Shown one piece after another: positions 46,809-58,943 of a DNA stretch of 58,943 nt. The DNA comes from an uncultured Bacteroidota bacterium (lineage in GTDB: Bacteria > Bacteroidota > Bacteroidia > Chitinophagales > Chitinophagaceae): assembly GCA_903881585.1 (NCBI GenBank), contig CAIRTW010000034.1:1-58943 (forward strand), written 5' to 3'. A model generated the notes under the pieces. The model was not told where the DNA came from. It made no database searches and worked only from the letters and a program-made list of their open reading frames with translations. The stretch's first letter is position 1. Each line of letters starts with the position of its first letter. The translations under genes and the position numbers were made by a program.

Positions 46809-49800
46809 CTAGTTTTTCACAAACGTTCTTGCGCCCATCTTCATACCGTCTTTCACAAGCACTACAGAGTAAACTCCTTGTGCAAGCCCGGATACATCTA
46901 TACTCCCTTTGCCAGACACCAGCGCACATCCGGTTATTTCCTTGCCCAGCATATCAAATAGTTTCACACTTACCTGGTTGTTATTATTCAGGCCCTTTAC
47001 CTCTATGAATACTTTGGAATCGGCAGGGTTCGGGAACAAAATGAATTCCAGATGTTCTACCGAGGTATAAGCTACTTCTACCGATGGCGGTGTCACATAG
47101 TATGCTTTCTGTAAACAGCCGCCATGAACGGTCATTACCCAATAGTACCCATGTATAAAATCAGGTGTTGGCTGGTTGTAGGTCTGCGAGGTTTCTCCGG
47201 GTATTATTGAGGAATCAAGGCTATTGCCATTGTCATAACCCCATTGGTAACTGTCTGCTGAATTATCAGTACAAGTGAAGGTAGACGCCGAATAAGTAAT
47301 GCCGGAGGCGGAAGATTCACCGCTTCCTACGCTGGTAACAAATGTATCAGATACCGCACAACCTGTCAGCAACAGCTGGCTTGTCAATGTTACCATAGCC
47401 ACACCCGCTGCTGGGAATGATACCAGAGCACCTTGTTTGTTCGGGCTTATGCTGTTTATGTCTGCATTGATGGCACCCCATGTATAAACAAAACCCACCG
47501 GCTGCGGAAGAACAGTGCCAATATTCATGTACTGCGTATTGGCACATATCGTGGCGCCGGGGTGAACCGTAAGATACGGACTTGCCGGTAGCTCATCAAT
47601 AATAACGGAAGCGCGCTTCACAGCCGCACACCCGCTGAACACCGTATATACTACTGTATCCAGGCCGTACCCAACTGCAGTTAATATGCCGCTTGACGCA
47701 TCGATGGTGGCTTTTACCGGGTTGGTACTGCTCCATATGCCGCCCGGCGATGCATCCAGCATTGTGTCTGTGCCGTACTGGCATACCGTATTATTGCCTG
47801 TGATCTCATCAAGTATTACTTCAGGCCCCACAGTAATGGGCCAGGTAGTCTTTTCTGTACTGCAATACTGGGTAACGGTATAAGTGATCGTATCATTGCC
47901 TGCTGCCAGGCCGGTAACCATTCCGTTCAGCGGATTGACATAAGCCACAGTAGGATTGTTGCCACTCCATACGCCGCCATATGCCGCATCGGTAAGCTGA
48001 ATAGTTGACGAAATGCATACGGACGAATAACCACCGATAACTCCGGCAACCGCCATCGGAGCAATGATCACCGCAGTTGTTGCCGCACAACCACCGGGTA
48101 AGGTATAACTGATCGTAGCCGTGCCGCCGGCTACTGCCGTAATAAGTCCCGTGATCGGCGAGGCGAAAGCTATACCCGGATCACTGCTGCTCCAGGTACC
48201 TCCGGAATAAACGTCCGTAAATGTTTCTGATTGTGGTACACAGAAATGCATGGTTCCGCTGATCGCCGAAGGCGTCTGTGTGACTGTAACTACGACTACC
48301 GAATTGCAAACTGAACTGAGACTATAGGTGATGGTTGCAACGCCAACGCTCACGCCGCCAACAACACCTGTGCCTAAACCAACTGTTGCCACTGAAGTGT
48401 TGCTGCTGCTCCAGTGTCCTCCAGGCGAACCATCCGTCAGTGTACTTGTACTGCCGGTGCATACATGGGCATCACCGGCTACATCAACCGGTGCGGCATT
48501 CACAGAGACTATTGCAATTGCCTTACAGCCAGACGCCACTACATAAGAAAAAGTATCCCTGCCCGGAGCAACGCCTGTTACATTCCCCGTAGCATCTATA
48601 GTGCCAAAAGCATTACTGGCGTTCCAGGTACCTCCGGCCGTTACATCGCTAAGAAATATAGATGCGCCTATACAAACATTTATTGGCCCTGTTATCGCAG
48701 CGGGAGATTGATTGACGGTAAGGGTAAGAATCGAAGTGCAGCCACTGGCCAGGTTATAAGTGATCGTTGCCGTACCGCCTGATATGCCGGATACAACTCC
48801 GGCTAATGAACCGACAGTAGCTACAGCAGTATTACTGCTGCTCCAGCGGCCACCAGTAGGCGTATCGCTCAATGTTAGTGTAGTGCCAGAGCAAATAACG
48901 CCTGTACCTGCAACGATGGCCGCCGGTATCGGGTCCACGGTAACGGTTTTAGTCTTCGAACAGCCGGTACTGAGTGTGTAAGTGATCGTGGTAGTGCCGG
49001 TTGTCACCGCAAGCGCACCACCCGACGACGAACCAATTGATGCAACAGATGAGTTACTACTGCTCCAGGTACCACCTGCAGTAGCATCTGTAAAGGAAAA
49101 GTAGCCGCTGATACAAAGTATTGCCGGCCCTGCTATTGCCGAAGGAACAACGTTTACGGTAACCACGGTTGTGGCCTTACAGCCAGCGCCCAGCGAATAC
49201 GCGATCGTTGCCGTACCATTCAACTCCCCGGTCACAACGCCGGCAGCAGTAATCGGCGCAGTCGAATAACTGCTGCTGCTCCAGGTGCCGCCGGCCACTG
49301 CATCGCTTAGCGTGCTGGTAGCGCCCATACAAATAATTGTAGTGCCCGTAATTGGGGCCGGAGACGGATTTACCGTGACTATTGCGGTCTTGTAACAACC
49401 GGCGGCTATAGTGTAAGTGATAGTAGCCGTACCTGCCGCCACACCCGAAACATTACCTGAGGTAAGGATAACGGCAGCAATACCAGGAGCGCTGCTAACC
49501 CATGTACCGCTGCCAACCGGATCGGTGAGGGACGTAATACTTCCCGCACACACAGTCCTGGTACCGTAAAGGGCAGTGGGAGATGCCGCAACCGTAACGA
49601 TAAGTGTAGACCGGCAACCCGCTGCCAGTGTATAAGAAATCGAAACGGTTCCCGCATTTATGCCCGTCACCACTCCTGATCCCGAGCCAACAGATGCCAC
49701 TGAACCGGTACCGCTGCTCCATGAACCGCCTGTTGTGGCATCGCTCAAAGTGATAGTGGAACCTGCGCAAACATTTCCCGCCCCTGCGACTGCGGCAGGT

Positions 49801-52800
49801 GATGGGTTAACGGTTACTACCGCCGTCATGATACAGCCAGTGCCCAAAGTATAAGTGATGGTAACGGTTCCTGGTGCCACACCAAAGGCCATGCCTGATA
49901 TAATGCCTATGGAACCTACAGCGGGATTACTGCTGCTCCAGGTACCGCCTGTGAGCACATTATTGAGCGGTGTTTCCAGGCCCTGGCAAACATGCAGTAC
50001 GCCACCTATACCACCGGGCAATGTATTAACGGTTACTATCGTAGTGATCTTGCACCCGGTAGGCGCAGTATAAGTTACCACGGATGTTCCTGCCACGTGG
50101 CCAGATACCAGGCCGCTCCCAGACCCTATCGTAGCCACGGTAGTGTTAGTGCTCACCCAGGTGCCGCCGCTCGTAGCATCGGTGAGTGTGGTAGTTAGTC
50201 CCGCACAAACAAAGGCCATCCCCGATATTTCTGCGGGAAATGGATTTACCACCAGCGTTTTGATAGCCGTGCAACCTGTAGGCAGTGTGTAAATAATGTG
50301 TGTTGAGCCCGAATTAATACCGCTTGCCAGGCCATAACCCGAGATAGTAGCCGCCGGCAGGTTATCGCTGCTCCAGGTACCGCCTATTGAGGCGTCTGTC
50401 AACAACGTTGTGTTGCCAGCGCATACTGCACTCGCGCCATTTATCGGCAACGGCAAAGGATGCACTGTGAATAATATAGTTTTGATACAGCCCGTGCCAA
50501 GAGTATAAGTTATCGTTGTAGTGCCCGCAGCGGTCCCGGTTACGGTTCCTGCGGCGTCAATAGTGGCAACAGCTGTATTGCTGCTGCTCCAGCTGCCGCC
50601 AGCTGCCTCGGTCAGGGTCACAGAGGAACCTGCACATACACTGGTTAGCCCGCTGATAGGTGATGGCAGCGGCTCCACGGTTACTATCGTGGAAATAATA
50701 CAGCCTGTGGTGACCTTATAAGTGATGGTGGCCGTACCCGCAGCTACGCCGGTCACAACGCCGCTTCCTGCACTTATACCTGCTATGCCCACATTGCCGC
50801 TTGTCCATGTTCCGCCGGTTGTTGCGTCCGTAAGCGTAGCTGTCAGCCCGGTACATACTGCCCCCGGCCCCGCGATCGCCGGCGGTAATGGATTTACTGT
50901 TACCACTGCAGTGCGCAAACAACCGGTGCCAAGAGTATAGGTGATCACATTCGTCCCTGCACTGAGGCCGGTAACAAAACCAGCTCCGTCAATACTTACA
51001 TTGCCCGGAGCCCCGGCAGCCCACACACCGCCAGTTGTAGCATCACTTAGCGAGATCATTAACCCGTCACAAACATGCAGGGTACCATTTAGCGCACCTG
51101 GCAGGGGATTAACAGTAACGGTAGCGACCGTACGGCATCCATCTCCCAAAGTATAAGTAATATTCGCCGTTCCGCTGCCGCCTCCTGTTACGATCCCGGT
51201 TCCACCTACTGTTGCCACCGGATTATAGGAGCTCACCCACGTACCCGCCCCCACAGCATCACTCAACGCTGTGGTCAGGCCCGCACACACAACGGTAGTA
51301 CCTGTTATTGGCGCAGGAGCTATGTTCACCGTCATCGTTGTCACCATCAGGCAGCTGGCACTGAGCTGGTAAGTAATACCGGTTGTACCTGCGGAAATAG
51401 CCAAAAATGTGCCCGTGCCGCTGCCGATCGTACCAACAGCAGGGTTGGCGCTTATCCATGCACCGCCGGCAGTAGCATCCATCAGGGTAGCAGTATTGCC
51501 TGCACATATACCGCCGCCGCCGCCAATACCTGCAGGCCCCGGCGTTACGGTCATTATTTTGGTGGCCATACACCCGGTGCCAAGTTTATAGGTGATCGTG
51601 GCAACGCCCACTGTGATGCCTGTAGCAATGCCGCTGGCGGAACCAATTGTAACTACCGCAGGGTAACTCGAAGACCACGAACCGCCTGCGGTCGTGTCGC
51701 TGAACACAGCAGGAGAACCGGCACATACGGTCGGATAGCCTGTAACAGCGCCCGGTGTTTCATTTATAAAAACAGTAGTAGTGCGCACACAACTGGCTGC
51801 CGATGTATAAGTGATCGTTGCCGTACCAGTGCCAACGGTAATAAGTGTGCCGGTGCCTGTGACATTTGCTACGGCCAAATTGCTGCTGGTCCAGGTGCCT
51901 CCGCCTGCGGCATCGCTGAGCGTACCGCTTGTGCCCATGCACAAACTGGTATTACCCAATATTGCAGGTGGCAGTCCGTTTACAACAAAAGGTGTCGTGA
52001 TCTTACAGCCGGTGAGCAGCGCATAGGTGATCGTCATAGAGCCTGCCGCCACACCGGTCACATTACCTGTCCCATCTACCGTTCCAACTGCCGTGTTACT
52101 GCTGCTCCAGAAACCGCCGCCTGATGCATCTGTCAGCGCCGAGGAAAACCCGATGCAGACATTTGCTGTGCCGGTTATTGCCGGGGGCAACGGATTCACA
52201 GTAACGGTCGTATATGTCAGGCAACCCGTGCCCAGTGTATAAGTAATTGTTGTTGTAGCTGCGCTGATACCCGAGACCACTCCGCTTACAGAAATTGCTG
52301 CAATCGTAATATCCCCGCTGCTCCAGGTGCCACCGCCTGTAGCATCACTGAGCGCAGTTGCTGTGCCGACACACATATGCAGCGTACCCGCAATTGCTGT
52401 TGGCAGGGCGTTTACCGTCACCACTTTGGTTACACGGCATCCGGTTGCAAAAGAATAACTGATCGTTGCAGTACCAGCAACGCCGCTCGTCACATTGCCA
52501 GAACCATCTATACTGGCAACCGCAATATTGCTGCTGCTCCAGGCACCGCCGGGTGCCGCGTCCGTTAGAATTGTTCCCGTGCCCGCACACATACTGGCTA
52601 CTCCCGCTATCGCTGATGGCAACGGGTTTATCGTCATTGCAGCTGTAATAATGCAGCCAGTAGCCGGAAGCTGATAACTGATAACAGGATTGCCTGCACC
52701 TATCGCCGCAACAAACCCCGTGCCCGAAATAACGGCCTCGGTCCCATCGCTGCTGCTCCAGGTACCGCCCGCTGTAATATCCGTAAATGTTGTAGCAGCT

Positions 52801-54254
52801 CCCTGGCACAGAGCCAGTGTGCCGGTTATGGCGGGTGGCAATGCATTAATGGTAACAACCCTTGTTGTATAACAGCCAGGCGCGGACGTATAGGTAACAA
52901 CAGCCGTGCCCGCCGAGAGGCCTGCCACATTTCCCGAACCATCCACGGTAGCCAGCCCACTCAGTGAGCTCCAGGCGCCGCCCGCAGAAGTATCGATCAA
53001 AGTCGTTGACATCCCGACACAAACTTTTGCGGTGCCGGTTATTGCAGATGGGAGGGGATTCACTGTAACCAGTATTGTGGTCAGGCATCCGGTTGCCAGT
53101 TTGTAAGAAATGGTAGGTGTACCGGCAGAAACGCCGGTAACTATCCCCGCAGATGATATAGTTGCAAGGGCAGTATTGCTGCTGCTCCAGGTGCCACCGG
53201 CACTGGCGTCGCTGAGATGTGTGGCCTGCCCCACACAGACCTGCGTGGTGCCGGATATTGCTGCCGGCAAAGCATTTACCGTCACATTCGCCGTCCGGAA
53301 ACAACCGTCCGAAAGCTGGTAAGTGACTATCGCCGTTCCGGCCGACTCCCCGGTTACAAACCCTGAACCTGATGCTACCGCTGCAACTGCGGCATTATTA
53401 CTGCTCCATTCTCCCGATGACGTAACATCGGTAAGCAGGGTAAGTGAACCGGCACAAACGGACAACGTACCAGAAATACCAACTGGCAACGGGTTGATCG
53501 TCATGTACATGATCGCAGCACAACCTGTGTTCATCGTATAGTGGATCACGGTATAGCCCATTCCTTCGCCGGTTACCACACCGGTAGTACTGCCTACTGC
53601 CGAGGTAAGTGTATTTGTACTGGTCCAAATACCGCCCGGAAGCGCGTCTGTAAGTGTATCGGTCGCGCCGGTACATACGTTATTGGAACCAACTATAGCC
53701 GACGGTGTGGCGTTAACCGTAAATGTCTCGTAACGGTAACAACCGGGCACTTTTGTAAATGTTATGCTGGCAACGCCACTGCTGATGCCTAATAAATTGC
53801 CGGTAGTCACACCAATATTTGCAATGGTCGAATCGCTGCTCGTCCATGTGCCCGAACCTGCGGCATCGCCCAGCAGCACAGATGACCCGGCGCAGACAGT
53901 ACTCGCGCCAGATATTGCTGCCGTAGCTGCATTCACCGTCACCGGATAAGTAACCACGGTAGTGCCACTTCCATCAGTAACCGAGTAAGATATCACTGCG
54001 GTACCAACACCACTACCGCTCACAACCCCTGTAGCGCTCACAGACGCAACCCCTGAATTACTGCTGGTCCATGAGCCTCCGGTAGTAGCATCAGAAAATG
54101 AAAATGTATTGCCCAGGCATACCGGCGAGGTCCCGGTAATAGGCCCCACCGCCGGCGCCGGATAAAGCAGAAACTCTGCAAAACCTGGGATGTCCCGTCC
54201 ATAGGTAAATATAACACAAAGGCCAAGAACAGCAGTGAGGAGAAGTCTCTTCAT
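46809..54254 (-). CDS. Giant secreted protein with ~30 Ig-like repeats and T9SS sorting domain
   Basis: A 2481-residue protein: signal peptide (about 1-20), then about 30 tandem Ig-like (bacterial Big_2-type) repeats of about 71 residues, each with a conserved Cys near the start (VCAG or similar), GGTWSSSN-type and ATITY-type blocks. I counted 30 VCxG-like starts. A different region from about residue 2190 (PASPYLTVHPGATICANTQYMNI) leads into the C-terminal T9SS sorting domain (HLEFILFPNPADSKVFIEVKG ... GVYSVVLVKDGMKM). It should be exported across the outer membrane and displayed or released, probably for adhesion. Repeat number likely varies between strains. Confidence 0.92.
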   Translation of the reverse strand: MKRLLLTAVLGLCVIFTYGRDIPGFAEFLLYPAPAVGPITGTSPVCLGNTFSFSDATTGGSWTSSNSGVASVSATGVVSGSGVGTAVISYSVTDGSGTTVVTYPVTVNAATAAISGASTVCAGSSVLLGDAAGSGTWTSSDSTIANIGVTTGNLLGISSGVASITFTKVPGCYRYETFTVNATPSAIVGSNNVCTGATDTLTDALPGGIWTSTNTLTSAVGSTTGVVTGEGMGYTVIHYTMNTGCAAIMYMTINPLPVGISGTLSVCAGSLTLLTDVTSSGEWSSNNAAVAAVASGSGFVTGESAGTAIVTYQLSDGCFRTANVTVNALPAAISGTTQVCVGQATHLSDASAGGTWSSSNTALATISSAGIVTGVSAGTPTISYKLATGCLTTILVTVNPLPSAITGTAKVCVGMSTTLIDTSAGGAWSSLSGLATVDGSGNVAGLSAGTAVVTYTSAPGCYTTRVVTINALPPAITGTLALCQGAATTFTDITAGGTWSSSDGTEAVISGTGFVAAIGAGNPVISYQLPATGCIITAAMTINPLPSAIAGVASMCAGTGTILTDAAPGGAWSSSNIAVASIDGSGNVTSGVAGTATISYSFATGCRVTKVVTVNALPTAIAGTLHMCVGTATALSDATGGGTWSSGDITIAAISVSGVVSGISAATTTITYTLGTGCLTYTTVTVNPLPPAITGTANVCIGFSSALTDASGGGFWSSSNTAVGTVDGTGNVTGVAAGSMTITYALLTGCKITTPFVVNGLPPAILGNTSLCMGTSGTLSDAAGGGTWTSSNLAVANVTGTGTLITVGTGTATITYTSAASCVRTTTVFINETPGAVTGYPTVCAGSPAVFSDTTAGGSWSSSYPAVVTIGSASGIATGITVGVATITYKLGTGCMATKIMTVTPGPAGIGGGGGICAGNTATLMDATAGGAWISANPAVGTIGSGTGTFLAISAGTTGITYQLSASCLMVTTMTVNIAPAPITGTTVVCAGLTTALSDAVGAGTWVSSYNPVATVGGTGIVTGGGSGTANITYTLGDGCRTVATVTVNPLPGALNGTLHVCDGLMISLSDATTGGVWAAGAPGNVSIDGAGFVTGLSAGTNVITYTLGTGCLRTAVVTVNPLPPAIAGPGAVCTGLTATLTDATTGGTWTSGNVGIAGISAGSGVVTGVAAGTATITYKVTTGCIISTIVTVEPLPSPISGLTSVCAGSSVTLTEAAGGSWSSSNTAVATIDAAGTVTGTAAGTTTITYTLGTGCIKTILFTVHPLPLPINGASAVCAGNTTLLTDASIGGTWSSDNLPAATISGYGLASGINSGSTHIIYTLPTGCTAIKTLVVNPFPAEISGMAFVCAGLTTTLTDATSGGTWVSTNTTVATIGSGSGLVSGHVAGTSVVTYTAPTGCKITTIVTVNTLPGGIGGVLHVCQGLETPLNNVLTGGTWSSSNPAVGSIGIISGMAFGVAPGTVTITYTLGTGCIMTAVVTVNPSPAAVAGAGNVCAGSTITLSDATTGGSWSSGTGSVASVGSGSGVVTGINAGTVSISYTLAAGCRSTLIVTVAASPTALYGTRTVCAGSITSLTDPVGSGTWVSSAPGIAAVILTSGNVSGVAAGTATITYTIAAGCYKTAIVTVNPSPAPITGTTIICMGATSTLSDAVAGGTWSSSSYSTAPITAAGVVTGELNGTATIAYSLGAGCKATTVVTVNVVPSAIAGPAILCISGYFSFTDATAGGTWSSSNSSVASIGSSSGGALAVTTGTTTITYTLSTGCSKTKTVTVDPIPAAIVAGTGVICSGTTLTLSDTPTGGRWSSSNTAVATVGSLAGVVSGISGGTATITYNLASGCTSILTLTVNQSPAAITGPINVCIGASIFLSDVTAGGTWNASNAFGTIDATGNVTGVAPGRDTFSYVVASGCKAIAIVSVNAAPVDVAGDAHVCTGSTSTLTDGSPGGHWSSSNTSVATVGLGTGVVGGVSVGVATITYSLSSVCNSVVVVTVTQTPSAISGTMHFCVPQSETFTDVYSGGTWSSSDPGIAFASPITGLITAVAGGTATISYTLPGGCAATTAVIIAPMAVAGVIGGYSSVCISSTIQLTDAAYGGVWSGNNPTVAYVNPLNGMVTGLAAGNDTITYTVTQYCSTEKTTWPITVGPEVILDEITGNNTVCQYGTDTMLDASPGGIWSSTNPVKATIDASSGILTAVGYGLDTVVYTVFSGCAAVKRASVIIDELPASPYLTVHPGATICANTQYMNIGTVLPQPVGFVYTWGAINADINSISPNKQGALVSFPAAGVAMVTLTSQLLLTGCAVSDTFVTSVGSGESSASGITYSASTFTCTDNSADSYQWGYDNGNSLDSSIIPGETSQTYNQPTPDFIHGYYWVMTVHGGCLQKAYYVTPPSVEVAYTSVEHLEFILFPNPADSKVFIEVKGLNNNNQVSVKLFDMLGKEITGCALVSGKGSIDVSGLAQGVYSVVLVKDGMKMGARTFVKN
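47550..54180 (-). repeat. Tandem ~213-219 bp repeat array within the giant gene
   Basis: The DNA units underlying the Ig repeats share the recurring core CTGCTGCTCCAGGTACC (plus-strand view) with divergence between units. Chance open frames on the opposite strand in this interval are products of the repeat and not genes. Confidence 0.85.
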
Positions 54255-55743: not shown

Positions 55744-56304
55744 CTATTTTAAATCTACCGGCTGTTCGTTATTGGATGTGATCTTAAATGCAGCCATTTT
55801 CCATGGTCCGGGAGGATTCCTTAATTCACGATGACGAATCTCGTAAATACCTGGCTGTATATTTATTCGTAGCGGTGTCGCATCTTTAAAATTTAAAGTA
55901 TCAAAAGCCTGGAATTTATCGCCTACCTGCTTGCTTAAAATTGCTGTAATTGCATTTTCACCACAAACAAATTTTACAGATCCAGGCTGCGGAATCGTCA
56001 CCACAGATTCGTCATAGTCCATATCCAGGTTTCTTTCTATTGGCGGAAAGGTATTTATCGTCACGTGATAATTCCCTCTATCATATTCCACCACTTCCGC
56101 ACATTTTTGCTCCTTCACAAAGTTCTTATCCTTATCACGATTAATAACCCTCGCCATGAAATCCACTGGCCTGTTTGGCGCACTAAGATATTCAAAGGAA
56201 AGTTTGCAACGGGACCCCGTCTTATCCTGTAAGCCATTTGGACCTTGTGCAAATGAGGCAATCGGCAGTAACAATAACGGCAGCAACCTAAATGGTCCTT
56301 TCAT
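55744..56304 (-). CDS. Secreted beta-rich protein of unknown function
   Basis: I prefer the Met at 56304 (MKGPFRLLPLLLLPIASFAQG), giving 186 residues with a clean signal peptide. The mature part has beta strands including YHVTINTFPPIERNLDMDYDESVVTIPQPGSVKFV and INIQPGIYEIRHREL, resembling the C-terminal beta-sandwich of Bacteroidota VWA/lipoprotein surface proteins, but no diagnostic domain. Envelope location is the safe statement. Confidence 0.65.
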   Translation of the reverse strand: MKGPFRLLPLLLLPIASFAQGPNGLQDKTGSRCKLSFEYLSAPNRPVDFMARVINRDKDKNFVKEQKCAEVVEYDRGNYHVTINTFPPIERNLDMDYDESVVTIPQPGSVKFVCGENAITAILSKQVGDKFQAFDTLNFKDATPLRINIQPGIYEIRHRELRNPPGPWKMAAFKITSNNEQPVDLK

Positions 56305-56411
56305 AAAACACAACTTGGTTCAATAATTTTTTGTATCGGGACTATAAAGCAGTGTGACATATTTGAGTTTTCTTGCCGATAAATTTATCATTGAATTTTT
56401 AGAAGCCATGA

Positions 56412-57077
56412 TTACAAATAATTCAACGCCAGCAAAGCCAATCTGGCATTTTCAACGAATTTCCGATAAGAGGGTAAAGAGCTCAACCGATCTAAGGTAA
56501 TTTTCTGGCCTATTGGCAAATAAAGATCCGCAATTGTTATTTCGTATTGTTTCTTTCTTTTAGGAACTTCTTCCTGCGCAATGTTTATTGCGTTTTTAAT
56601 AATCTCTTTCGGGTTTGCAATAGACTCAGGTTGACGTGTAAGCTGTAACGTCTCATTACTTTTATCAGTCATCAACTCGTTTTTGATTAATTGTATATCT
56701 GCTAGCATCCATGACTCCGTCATTTGTACCGGAACTACCGGAACTAAATTTCTGCACACTGCAGCATTCGACATATTTACTTCATGAAACGCGGGCAGAA
56801 TTTTGTTATCAAAACTCGCTTTATCATTTCTTGCATCTGCATCAATATGTATACACAGTATCATCACGCCAGTTTCCTCAGCGATGCTTGCGGCATTCAC
56901 AACATTATTATTAAAATTATCGGGAATTGATCTGATTATTTCAATTGGATAAATATCAGGCAACTCATTACTTTCAGAAATTATCAATTCCTCAAAAGTG
57001 CGGGATATAACACTGCTTAAAAAACGAACATCGGTTGTGCCCTCTGTCATGAGGCCGAGAATCAAAGGTCTACTCAT
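56412..57077 (-). CDS. TOPRIM/DUF4276-like protein partnered with an AAA ATPase
   Basis: A 221-residue protein with the TOPRIM-like pattern of DUF4276/OLD-type nucleases: GLMTEGTTDVRFLSSVI (Glu12 and Asp16), LCIHIDADARND (Asp79, Asp81), and QMTESWMLAD downstream, characteristic of DUF4276. TOPRIM proteins bind Mg2+ and cut or modify nucleic acid. Its start overlaps the end of the ATPase gene by eight bases, so they are coupled and likely form one complex, in the manner of Gabija, PARIS or OLD-type systems. Nuclease activity is inferred; residues for a full OLD TOPRIM (third acidic site) are not all confirmed. Confidence 0.7.
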   Translation of the reverse strand: MSRPLILGLMTEGTTDVRFLSSVISRTFEELIISESNELPDIYPIEIIRSIPDNFNNNVVNAASIAEETGVMILCIHIDADARNDKASFDNKILPAFHEVNMSNAAVCRNLVPVVPVQMTESWMLADIQLIKNELMTDKSNETLQLTRQPESIANPKEIIKNAINIAQEEVPKRKKQYEITIADLYLPIGQKITLDRLSSLPSYRKFVENARLALLALNYL

Positions 57078-58488
57078 TTATGCCTAAATCTACAATTGTT
57101 TTTTCTACATCTTTTGCATGCTCCAAATACCTTCGTAACTGCGCAAGAGCAAGTTTTTTTTCTTCGGGGAAATTAAAGCTGCCCTGATTGTTAATATCCT
57201 TTTTCGTGTCGGAATCAACTGAAATTATTTTGCTTATATAAATTTTCACCCTTTCGTCCTCTACTTTTACTATTGACGTAACTAGCTGAGACAACCAAAC
57301 TGAGATATTATCCTTACCCAAATCAAAAAGTTCGCTAACAAGAATGGGTGAATGGGTATTAATTATTACTTGTCGCAGCGGACTATCGACATCTGAAAAG
57401 TCAACACTTAGGTCGCTTAACAAATAAGCCATTTCCTTCATACGCGCAGGGTGTACCCCATTCTCCGGCTCTTCAAAACATAATAACCCATTATGTAGAT
57501 CATCGTACTGAAAAACGCACAGAGCTAACAGCCTTAGCGTACCTTCTGATAAAACACGAGAGGAAAACTCTCTTCCATCTTCGCTTTTTATTTTTATGAT
57601 GAATTGTTTATTTGCCGAGTCATTGTAAACGTTCACTTCGACAAGCGAGGGTAATAAATTGTTTAGTTTTCTGGAAATATTTTTTAACGCATGTCTATCA
57701 TTTATGTGAATTCGCCAAAGAGCTGCTGCAAGATTTTCACCACTCTGTGTAATCACATCACGCATACCAATATCCTGTCTCGTAGGTTCTCTTAATGCCT
57801 GCGGGTTTAATTGTAAAAACTTCCAACTAATAAGTTCTTGTTTAAAAGCAAATGCATGACGAAAATCGACCGAATTAATACTACTTAAAATAGTTTGGGT
57901 AATTCCTGGATTTATTGGAAACTCTTTTTTACCGCCACCACCGCCATCTTGCCTTAAAATAATAGCATGCGAATCTTCCGTTTCAATATATGGAAAACCC
58001 CTGCGCCCGGTTGCAACTTTCGGCCGCCATGCTATTCTTTGTTTTGACTTAATAAAATTTTTCACCCACTCATCCTCTTCATGCTTTAAAGCAACTAGTC
58101 GTTCAGCTATAATTATTAAATCTTCCAATCCGTTTCCTTTCTCTTCTCTTTTAATTGAAAGTTCATACCGCAACCGGGTGTATTTAAGAACCGCGTTTTT
58201 CCCCCAGTTATCCCGAACTTCTTTATTTAATAATACTTCAACCGCAAAAGTCATATTGGTTTCATAAGTATTATCACCGTATTGTGTAAAAAGTTCCGCT
58301 GCACTTCCCCGTTGCTCGCTAAATGCAGTTCTTAAATCAGTTTCAGCAATTCTTGAGAGTAAATTAAGTGCATCGAATAGATTACTTTTCCCAGACGCAT
58401 TAGTTCCCGCTATCACCGTCAGTGGAGAAAATTGCATCTGAAAATTGCGAAATGTCTTAAACCCGTTTATCTCGATCCTGGATATCAT
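57070..58488 (-). CDS. AAA-family ATPase (AAA_21/OLD-like)
   Basis: A 472-residue SMC/RecF-type ATPase. The N-terminus is FKTFRNFQMQFSPLTVIAGTNASGKSNLFDALNLLSRI with Walker A GTNASGKSN at about 28-36. Then DNA-sensing insert, ABC-type signature SEGTLRLLAL, Walker B LLCFEEPENGVHP and the switch His in IINTHSPILVS. The C-terminal ~100 residues form a partner-specific helical tail. AT-rich codon usage differs from the genes to the left. It is first in a two-gene operon with the TOPRIM-like protein. Likely an ATP-gated sensor, activity in defence is inference. Confidence 0.88.
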   Translation of the reverse strand: MISRIEINGFKTFRNFQMQFSPLTVIAGTNASGKSNLFDALNLLSRIAETDLRTAFSEQRGSAAELFTQYGDNTYETNMTFAVEVLLNKEVRDNWGKNAVLKYTRLRYELSIKREEKGNGLEDLIIIAERLVALKHEEDEWVKNFIKSKQRIAWRPKVATGRRGFPYIETEDSHAIILRQDGGGGGKKEFPINPGITQTILSSINSVDFRHAFAFKQELISWKFLQLNPQALREPTRQDIGMRDVITQSGENLAAALWRIHINDRHALKNISRKLNNLLPSLVEVNVYNDSANKQFIIKIKSEDGREFSSRVLSEGTLRLLALCVFQYDDLHNGLLCFEEPENGVHPARMKEMAYLLSDLSVDFSDVDSPLRQVIINTHSPILVSELFDLGKDNISVWLSQLVTSIVKVEDERVKIYISKIISVDSDTKKDINNQGSFNFPEEKKLALAQLRRYLEHAKDVEKTIVDLGINE

Positions 58489-58802: not shown

Positions 58803-58849
58803 TAAAAGTACAATAGGGACGCTGTTTTTGCGTCCCTATTGTACTTTTA
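58803..58849. terminator. Perfect 20-bp inverted repeat, likely terminator of the tRNA
   Basis: 58803-58822 and 58830-58849 are exact reverse complements (core GTACAATAGGGACGC, 7-base loop TGTTTTT), with A/T at the outer ends. On the minus strand it follows the tRNA 3' end by about 43 bases. Terminator is the likeliest reading; the length and perfection also fit a recombination or small mobile-repeat remnant. Confidence 0.7.
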
Positions 58850-58891: not shown

Positions 58892-58943
58892 TGACCTTGT
58901 CAGGATTCAAACCTGAAACCTTCTCATCCGTAGTGAGATGCTC
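58892..58943 (-). tRNA. tRNA-Arg(ACG), 3' portion, cut by the window edge
   Basis: Read on the minus strand: GAGC closes the D stem, TCTCA/TGAGA form the anticodon stem, the loop CTACGGA gives anticodon ACG (Arg), the T arm is TCAGG-TTTGAAT-CCTGA, and CAAGGTC plus discriminator A end the acceptor. CCA is not encoded. The 5' half lies beyond 58943. A second GTGACCTT copy at 58867-58874 outside the tRNA could be a trace of earlier integration. Confidence 0.85.

Follow-up and report, generated by a model that had tools for sequence, protein, structure and literature searches.

A HEC-01-type pair of ATPase and DUF4276 genes beside tRNA-Arg(ACG) in an uncultured Chitinophagaceae bacterium, a candidate anti-phage system

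Assignment of the gene pair to HEC-01

Near the right end of the window, by which we mean the whole 58,943-nucleotide stretch of DNA that was analysed, lie two overlapping genes that are an instance of the catalogued candidate defence system HEC-01 and not an undescribed branch. The first (57070-58488, minus strand) encodes an OLD/ABC-class ATPase of 472 residues and the second (56412-57077, minus strand) a DUF4276 protein of 221 residues, a probable TOPRIM-like nuclease; both assignments draw on PADLOC, Pfam and motifs. The ATPase matches the PADLOC profile HEC-01A (PDLC04184) with E=6e-130, residues 1-457 aligning with profile positions 1-459 of 464, and the partner matches HEC-01B (PDLC04212) with E=2e-45, residues 6-221 aligning with positions 5-221 of 222. 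Given these full-length matches to both components in PADLOC-DB 2.0, and a two-gene unit laid out alike, the pair belongs to the catalogued candidate system, to which it adds a well-preserved member.

The name HEC denotes an Hma-embedded candidate, a class described, as cited in PMC12255303, in the preprint of Payne et al. 2024 (doi 10.1101/2024.01.29.577857). Unlike its namesake, the pair in the window stands without an Hma locus, alone beside a tRNA-Arg gene. According to PMC12988326, several HECs are active, HEC-06 being named among them, and validation is lacking for most related PDC candidates. HEC-01 itself is listed among the predicted systems of Desulfovibrio piger (PMC12724379), and our literature search found no experiment on HEC-01 or on this pair.

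The ATPase falls into Pfam family AAA_21 (E=9e-30), with similarity to AAA_15 and SMC_N as well. The sequence-only reading had recognised an SMC/OLD-type ATPase with its motifs intact, and this proved correct: Walker A (AGxNxxGKSN, residues 27-36), the signature (LSEGTLR, 313-319), Walker B (CFEEPENG, 337-344) and the switch histidine (H379, in NTHS) are all present and invariant in 11 homologues. An AlphaFold model of the ATPase from a three-sequence alignment was too poor for use (pLDDT 33.5). The two genes overlap by exactly 8 bp (57070-57077, minus strand). Their GC content is 37.6% against 45.4% for the window, a weak point since the adjacent 1-2 kb are already at about 40%; in the window, and likewise at 8 of 10 homologous loci, the pair is richer in AT than its surroundings. 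Upstream of the pair there is no match to the Bacteroidota -33/-7 promoter pattern, and the single match in the window is no better than chance.

Several known systems combine proteins of these kinds. As in PARIS, the OLD-type ATPase and TOPRIM-like genes are separate and in tandem, and DUF4276 aligns distantly with DUF4435. However, the PARIS effector AriB is a DUF4435 protein, whereas the partner here has no DUF4435 match (Pfam, E<=0.1), and the ATPase matches AriA with E=2.5e-31, ranked below HEC-01A; for want of a DUF4435 effector and of AriA as best ATPase family, membership in PARIS was rejected. AbiL (AbiLi/AbiLii) is likewise a two-gene unit of an ATPase and a TOPRIM-like effector, and the ATPase matches AbiLi weakly (E=7e-21); AbiL was rejected as the partner has no AbiLii/RloB match at E<=1. 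Gabija (GajA/GajB) and the single-gene OLD nucleases share with the pair an ABC ATPase together with predicted TOPRIM chemistry, but GajA fuses ATPase and TOPRIM, whereas here they are two genes with no UvrD-like GajB beside them. Gabija was rejected on the separate genes, and no other gene lies between the pair and the tRNA. The ATPase also resembles MAD3 of the MADS system (mad3), but with 157 bits against an NCBIfam cutoff of 420, an adjacent DUF4276 partner and no mad genes beside the pair, MADS was rejected as well.

The earlier view that the pair departs from PARIS with its DUF4435 effector and from the GajA arrangement is therefore borne out by negative sequence membership tests for both. 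The accompanying suggestion of a less-studied branch holds only in part: the pair is little studied, but its full-length PADLOC matches place it in a family that is already catalogued.

The DUF4276 partner and its relation to TOPRIM effectors

The partner matches Pfam DUF4276 above cutoff (E=2e-9) and carries the motifs E12-G13...D16, H77-x-D79-A-D81 and E121-x-W123. In an alignment of 34 DUF4276 proteins, E12 and G13 are each conserved in 28 of 30, D79 in 33 of 34, D81 in 31 of 34 and E121 in all 34, and the order hhEGxxD followed by DxD is in register with DUF4435. When the profile of this alignment was compared with that of DUF4435/AriB, built from DUF4435 proteins of the same order as the window genome, the two aligned over 97 columns with a score of 40.9 (P=7.6e-5; the merged DUF4276 alignment was one among several profile pairings tried), while the highest score in 60 column-shuffled controls was 15.7. 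The alignment places EG..D on EG..D and DxD on DxD. Against DUF4435 and OLD TOPRIM combined, the DUF4276 profile gave P=9e-6; pairings with OLD TOPRIM alone were weak, as was the alignment of the EG motif in them. The 11 HEC-01B sequences by themselves also gave weak profile scores, and their best alignment still superposes the EG motifs.

An AlphaFold model of the partner built from three sequences (pLDDT 72.2, pTM 0.71) has a strand-helix order that fits TOPRIM, with pLDDT of about 55-65 across much of the N-terminal catalytic part. Foldseek with this low-confidence model returned no match at E<=0.001, and a sequence search found no PDB relatives of the partner. The proposal that the second protein is TOPRIM-like is thus upheld by its motifs and by the profile comparison with DUF4435/AriB, while a confident fold was not obtained from the weak model. 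Judged from its sequence, the partner is probably TOPRIM-like, and E12, D79 and D81 are predicted to be the residues of a metal-dependent nuclease.

Proposed action of the pair

We consider it probable that the two genes form an anti-phage operon of HEC-01 type that acts in a PARIS-like manner, the ATPase restraining a TOPRIM-like nuclease effector. In PARIS, a hexamer of AriA keeps AriB inactive until a phage protein binds AriA and so releases AriB, which dimerises and cleaves tRNA (PMC12409363). By analogy, the ATPase most likely acts as a sensor that also restrains the DUF4276 protein, the nuclease effector. Under this scenario, the OLD-class ABC ATPase would assemble as a multimer and hold the smaller TOPRIM-like protein inactive in a complex. 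A signal induced by phage would then alter the ATPase, freeing or activating its partner, and the freed partner, as a metal-dependent nuclease using the predicted E12, D79 and D81, would cut host or phage nucleic acid. Such cutting would halt the infection, probably with an abortive outcome, as AriA and AriB do.

A variant that overlaps with this explanation differs in the target. Here the pair would attack incoming plasmid or phage DNA directly, as a nickase or exonuclease in the manner of Gabija and OLD, instead of aborting infection through a PARIS-like tRNase. The TOPRIM domains of OLD and GajA do cleave DNA (PMC10568477), and the EG motif of DUF4276 aligns, if weakly, with that of OLD TOPRIM. 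Against this, DUF4435, the AriB family, is the better profile match and the separate genes resemble the layout of PARIS, neither of which settles the substrate. We regard direct DNA targeting as possible but the less probable form of a nuclease-based defence.

Distribution of the pair and the tRNA-Arg(ACG) site

Among 101 relatives, the ATPase has a match at E<=1e-30 in seven genomes, that of the window included, and the pair is patchy, occurring in 6 of 84 good-quality relatives. In 10 of 10 homologous loci whose ATPase gene is readable, the DUF4276 gene lies directly downstream of it, the spacing being -8 to +15 bp across 11 homologous loci, and in an order-wide scan a homologous ATPase adjoins 27 of 30 DUF4276 loci. 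In the near group, the ATPases are 47-59% and the partners 34-48% identical to the window proteins; in the distant loci L020 and L021 the figures are 31-32% and 17-22%, respectively. The window genome (G000) encodes at least two more ATPase/DUF4276 pairs, on contigs C23 and C95. A DUF4276 locus is also found on its contig C174; an adjacent ATPase was established for those on C23 and C95.

The near homologues are solo insertions among unrelated genes, for example beside recQ-like (L018), ruvB-like (L024) and aroA-like (L011) genes, these neighbours being named by reading their sequences and not by profile search. The distant pair of L020 sits inside a type III restriction-modification (R-M) operon (L020:740-8832), between Mod with a HEC-04-like ATPase on one side and Res on the other; the methylase matches its type III profile with E=8e-182 and the restriction subunit with E=1e-68. 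Since the flanking genes differ from genome to genome, a conserved housekeeping position, which the sequence-only reading had named as grounds for abandoning a defence role, is ruled out. Scans of viral contigs found no close relative and only distant ATPases. One match in a phage collection, MT836135.1 (L024, filed as 'Bacteriophage sp.'), does carry a HEC-01 pair, but its gene content, ruvB-like and otherwise housekeeping-like, looks like that of a bacterial scaffold, and carriage by a prophage is unsupported.

In the window, the pair neighbours a tRNA-Arg(ACG) gene of which the 3' two thirds are present (58892-58943, minus strand; Rfam RF00005, 34.4 bits, the cutoff being 29). The gene turns its 3' side towards the pair, and 404 bp separate its 3' end from the start of the ATPase gene. 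The window is the whole of contig C34, whose end truncates the tRNA gene, and for this reason ARAGORN finds no tRNA in it. The missing 5' half ends contig C208 of the same genome, which has 19 bases in common with the window end, and the junction of the two contigs falls inside the tRNA (window 58943 / C208:6860). Strains that differ at the insertion site may account for this break. On C208 an RlmH-like gene reads away from the tRNA, an arrangement that recurs in sister species. The anticodon ACG and the Arg identity are assigned by homology, the orthologues being typed as tRNA-Arg(acg) by ARAGORN. Together, the Rfam match, the 5' half on C208 and the orthologues confirm the tRNA-Arg that had been noticed near the pair.

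Between tRNA and pair lies a perfect 20-bp inverted repeat with a 7-nt loop (58803-58849), probably a terminator that would separate the transcription units of the two. When the window was searched for a copy of the tRNA 3' end that would mark an att duplication, none was found, and no integrase or further defence gene was seen in the examined parts of the window. The pair probably inserted at the tRNA.

In sister species, varied cargo lies on the 3' side of the orthologous tRNA-Arg(ACG), with regions at L072 5811-11142, L073 6206-7486 and L077 6148-10015. In G009 this side bears a type I R-M methylase, a specificity gene and a PtuA-like (Septu-like) ATPase, in G025 the candidate pair PDC-M62A/B, in G012 a tyrosine recombinase and in G006 a gene with a transposase/terminase-like HTH. 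Plain hisS occupies the position in G017, and G010, G015 and G018 have no clear defence or mobile gene there. The 3' side of this tRNA is likely a genus-wide defence hotspot and as such a place to seek more defence genes in the genus. This hotspot and the link between DUF4276 and AriB (DUF4435) are modest additions to what is catalogued for HEC-01. More tentatively, and with considerable doubt, DUF4276 could form a separate effector family distantly akin to AriB as its sister, in which case HEC-01 would comprise PARIS-like sensor/effector modules with different triggers, and perhaps different RNA targets, housed at the genus-wide hotspot.

The HEC-01A and HEC-01B matches, the patchy distribution, the shifting neighbourhoods and the defence-loaded tRNA site support the original designation of the genes as a candidate anti-phage pair. 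The overlapping two-gene layout and the solo insertions would also suit an addiction module of the toxin-antitoxin kind, a selfish or stabilising element whose TOPRIM nuclease toxin would be neutralised by the ATPase, with any phage defence incidental or absent. Pairs of AAA ATPase and TOPRIM_OLD do neutralise each other in E. coli toxicity assays (PMC10440598). However, the R-M genes that flank the pair in L020 and the defence-loaded tRNA site argue against such a module, which we hold to be unlikely; moreover, the authors of that study suspect the ATPase:TOPRIM_OLD pairs of being abortive-infection systems, so the addiction and defence readings overlap. Least probable, and by our estimate very unlikely, is a pair for DNA repair or chromosome maintenance, a RecF/SbcCD-like ATPase with a TOPRIM partner and no defence role: the ATPase is similar to SMC_N and AAA_15, and the archaeal OLD protein Cran1 works in the cell cycle, a non-defence role (PMC12796447), but the presence of the pair in so few good-quality relatives, in varying neighbourhoods and with several paralogous pairs per genome, speaks against this, and the best profile matches are all to candidate defence families. 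The PARIS-like defence operon thus remains the explanation that we favour.

On the far side of the pair from the tRNA, a small signal-peptide-like protein (55744-56313, minus strand), for which there is no Pfam family, matches part of long reading frames, of about 660-890 residues, in most genomes of the genus, and it may be a detached domain. Further to the left, a secreted protein of 2481 residues (46809-54254, minus strand) is rich in Ig-like repeats of the Big_2 family and also has a Por secretion tail; repetitive genes that resemble it also occur near the tRNA in L073, L075 and L076.
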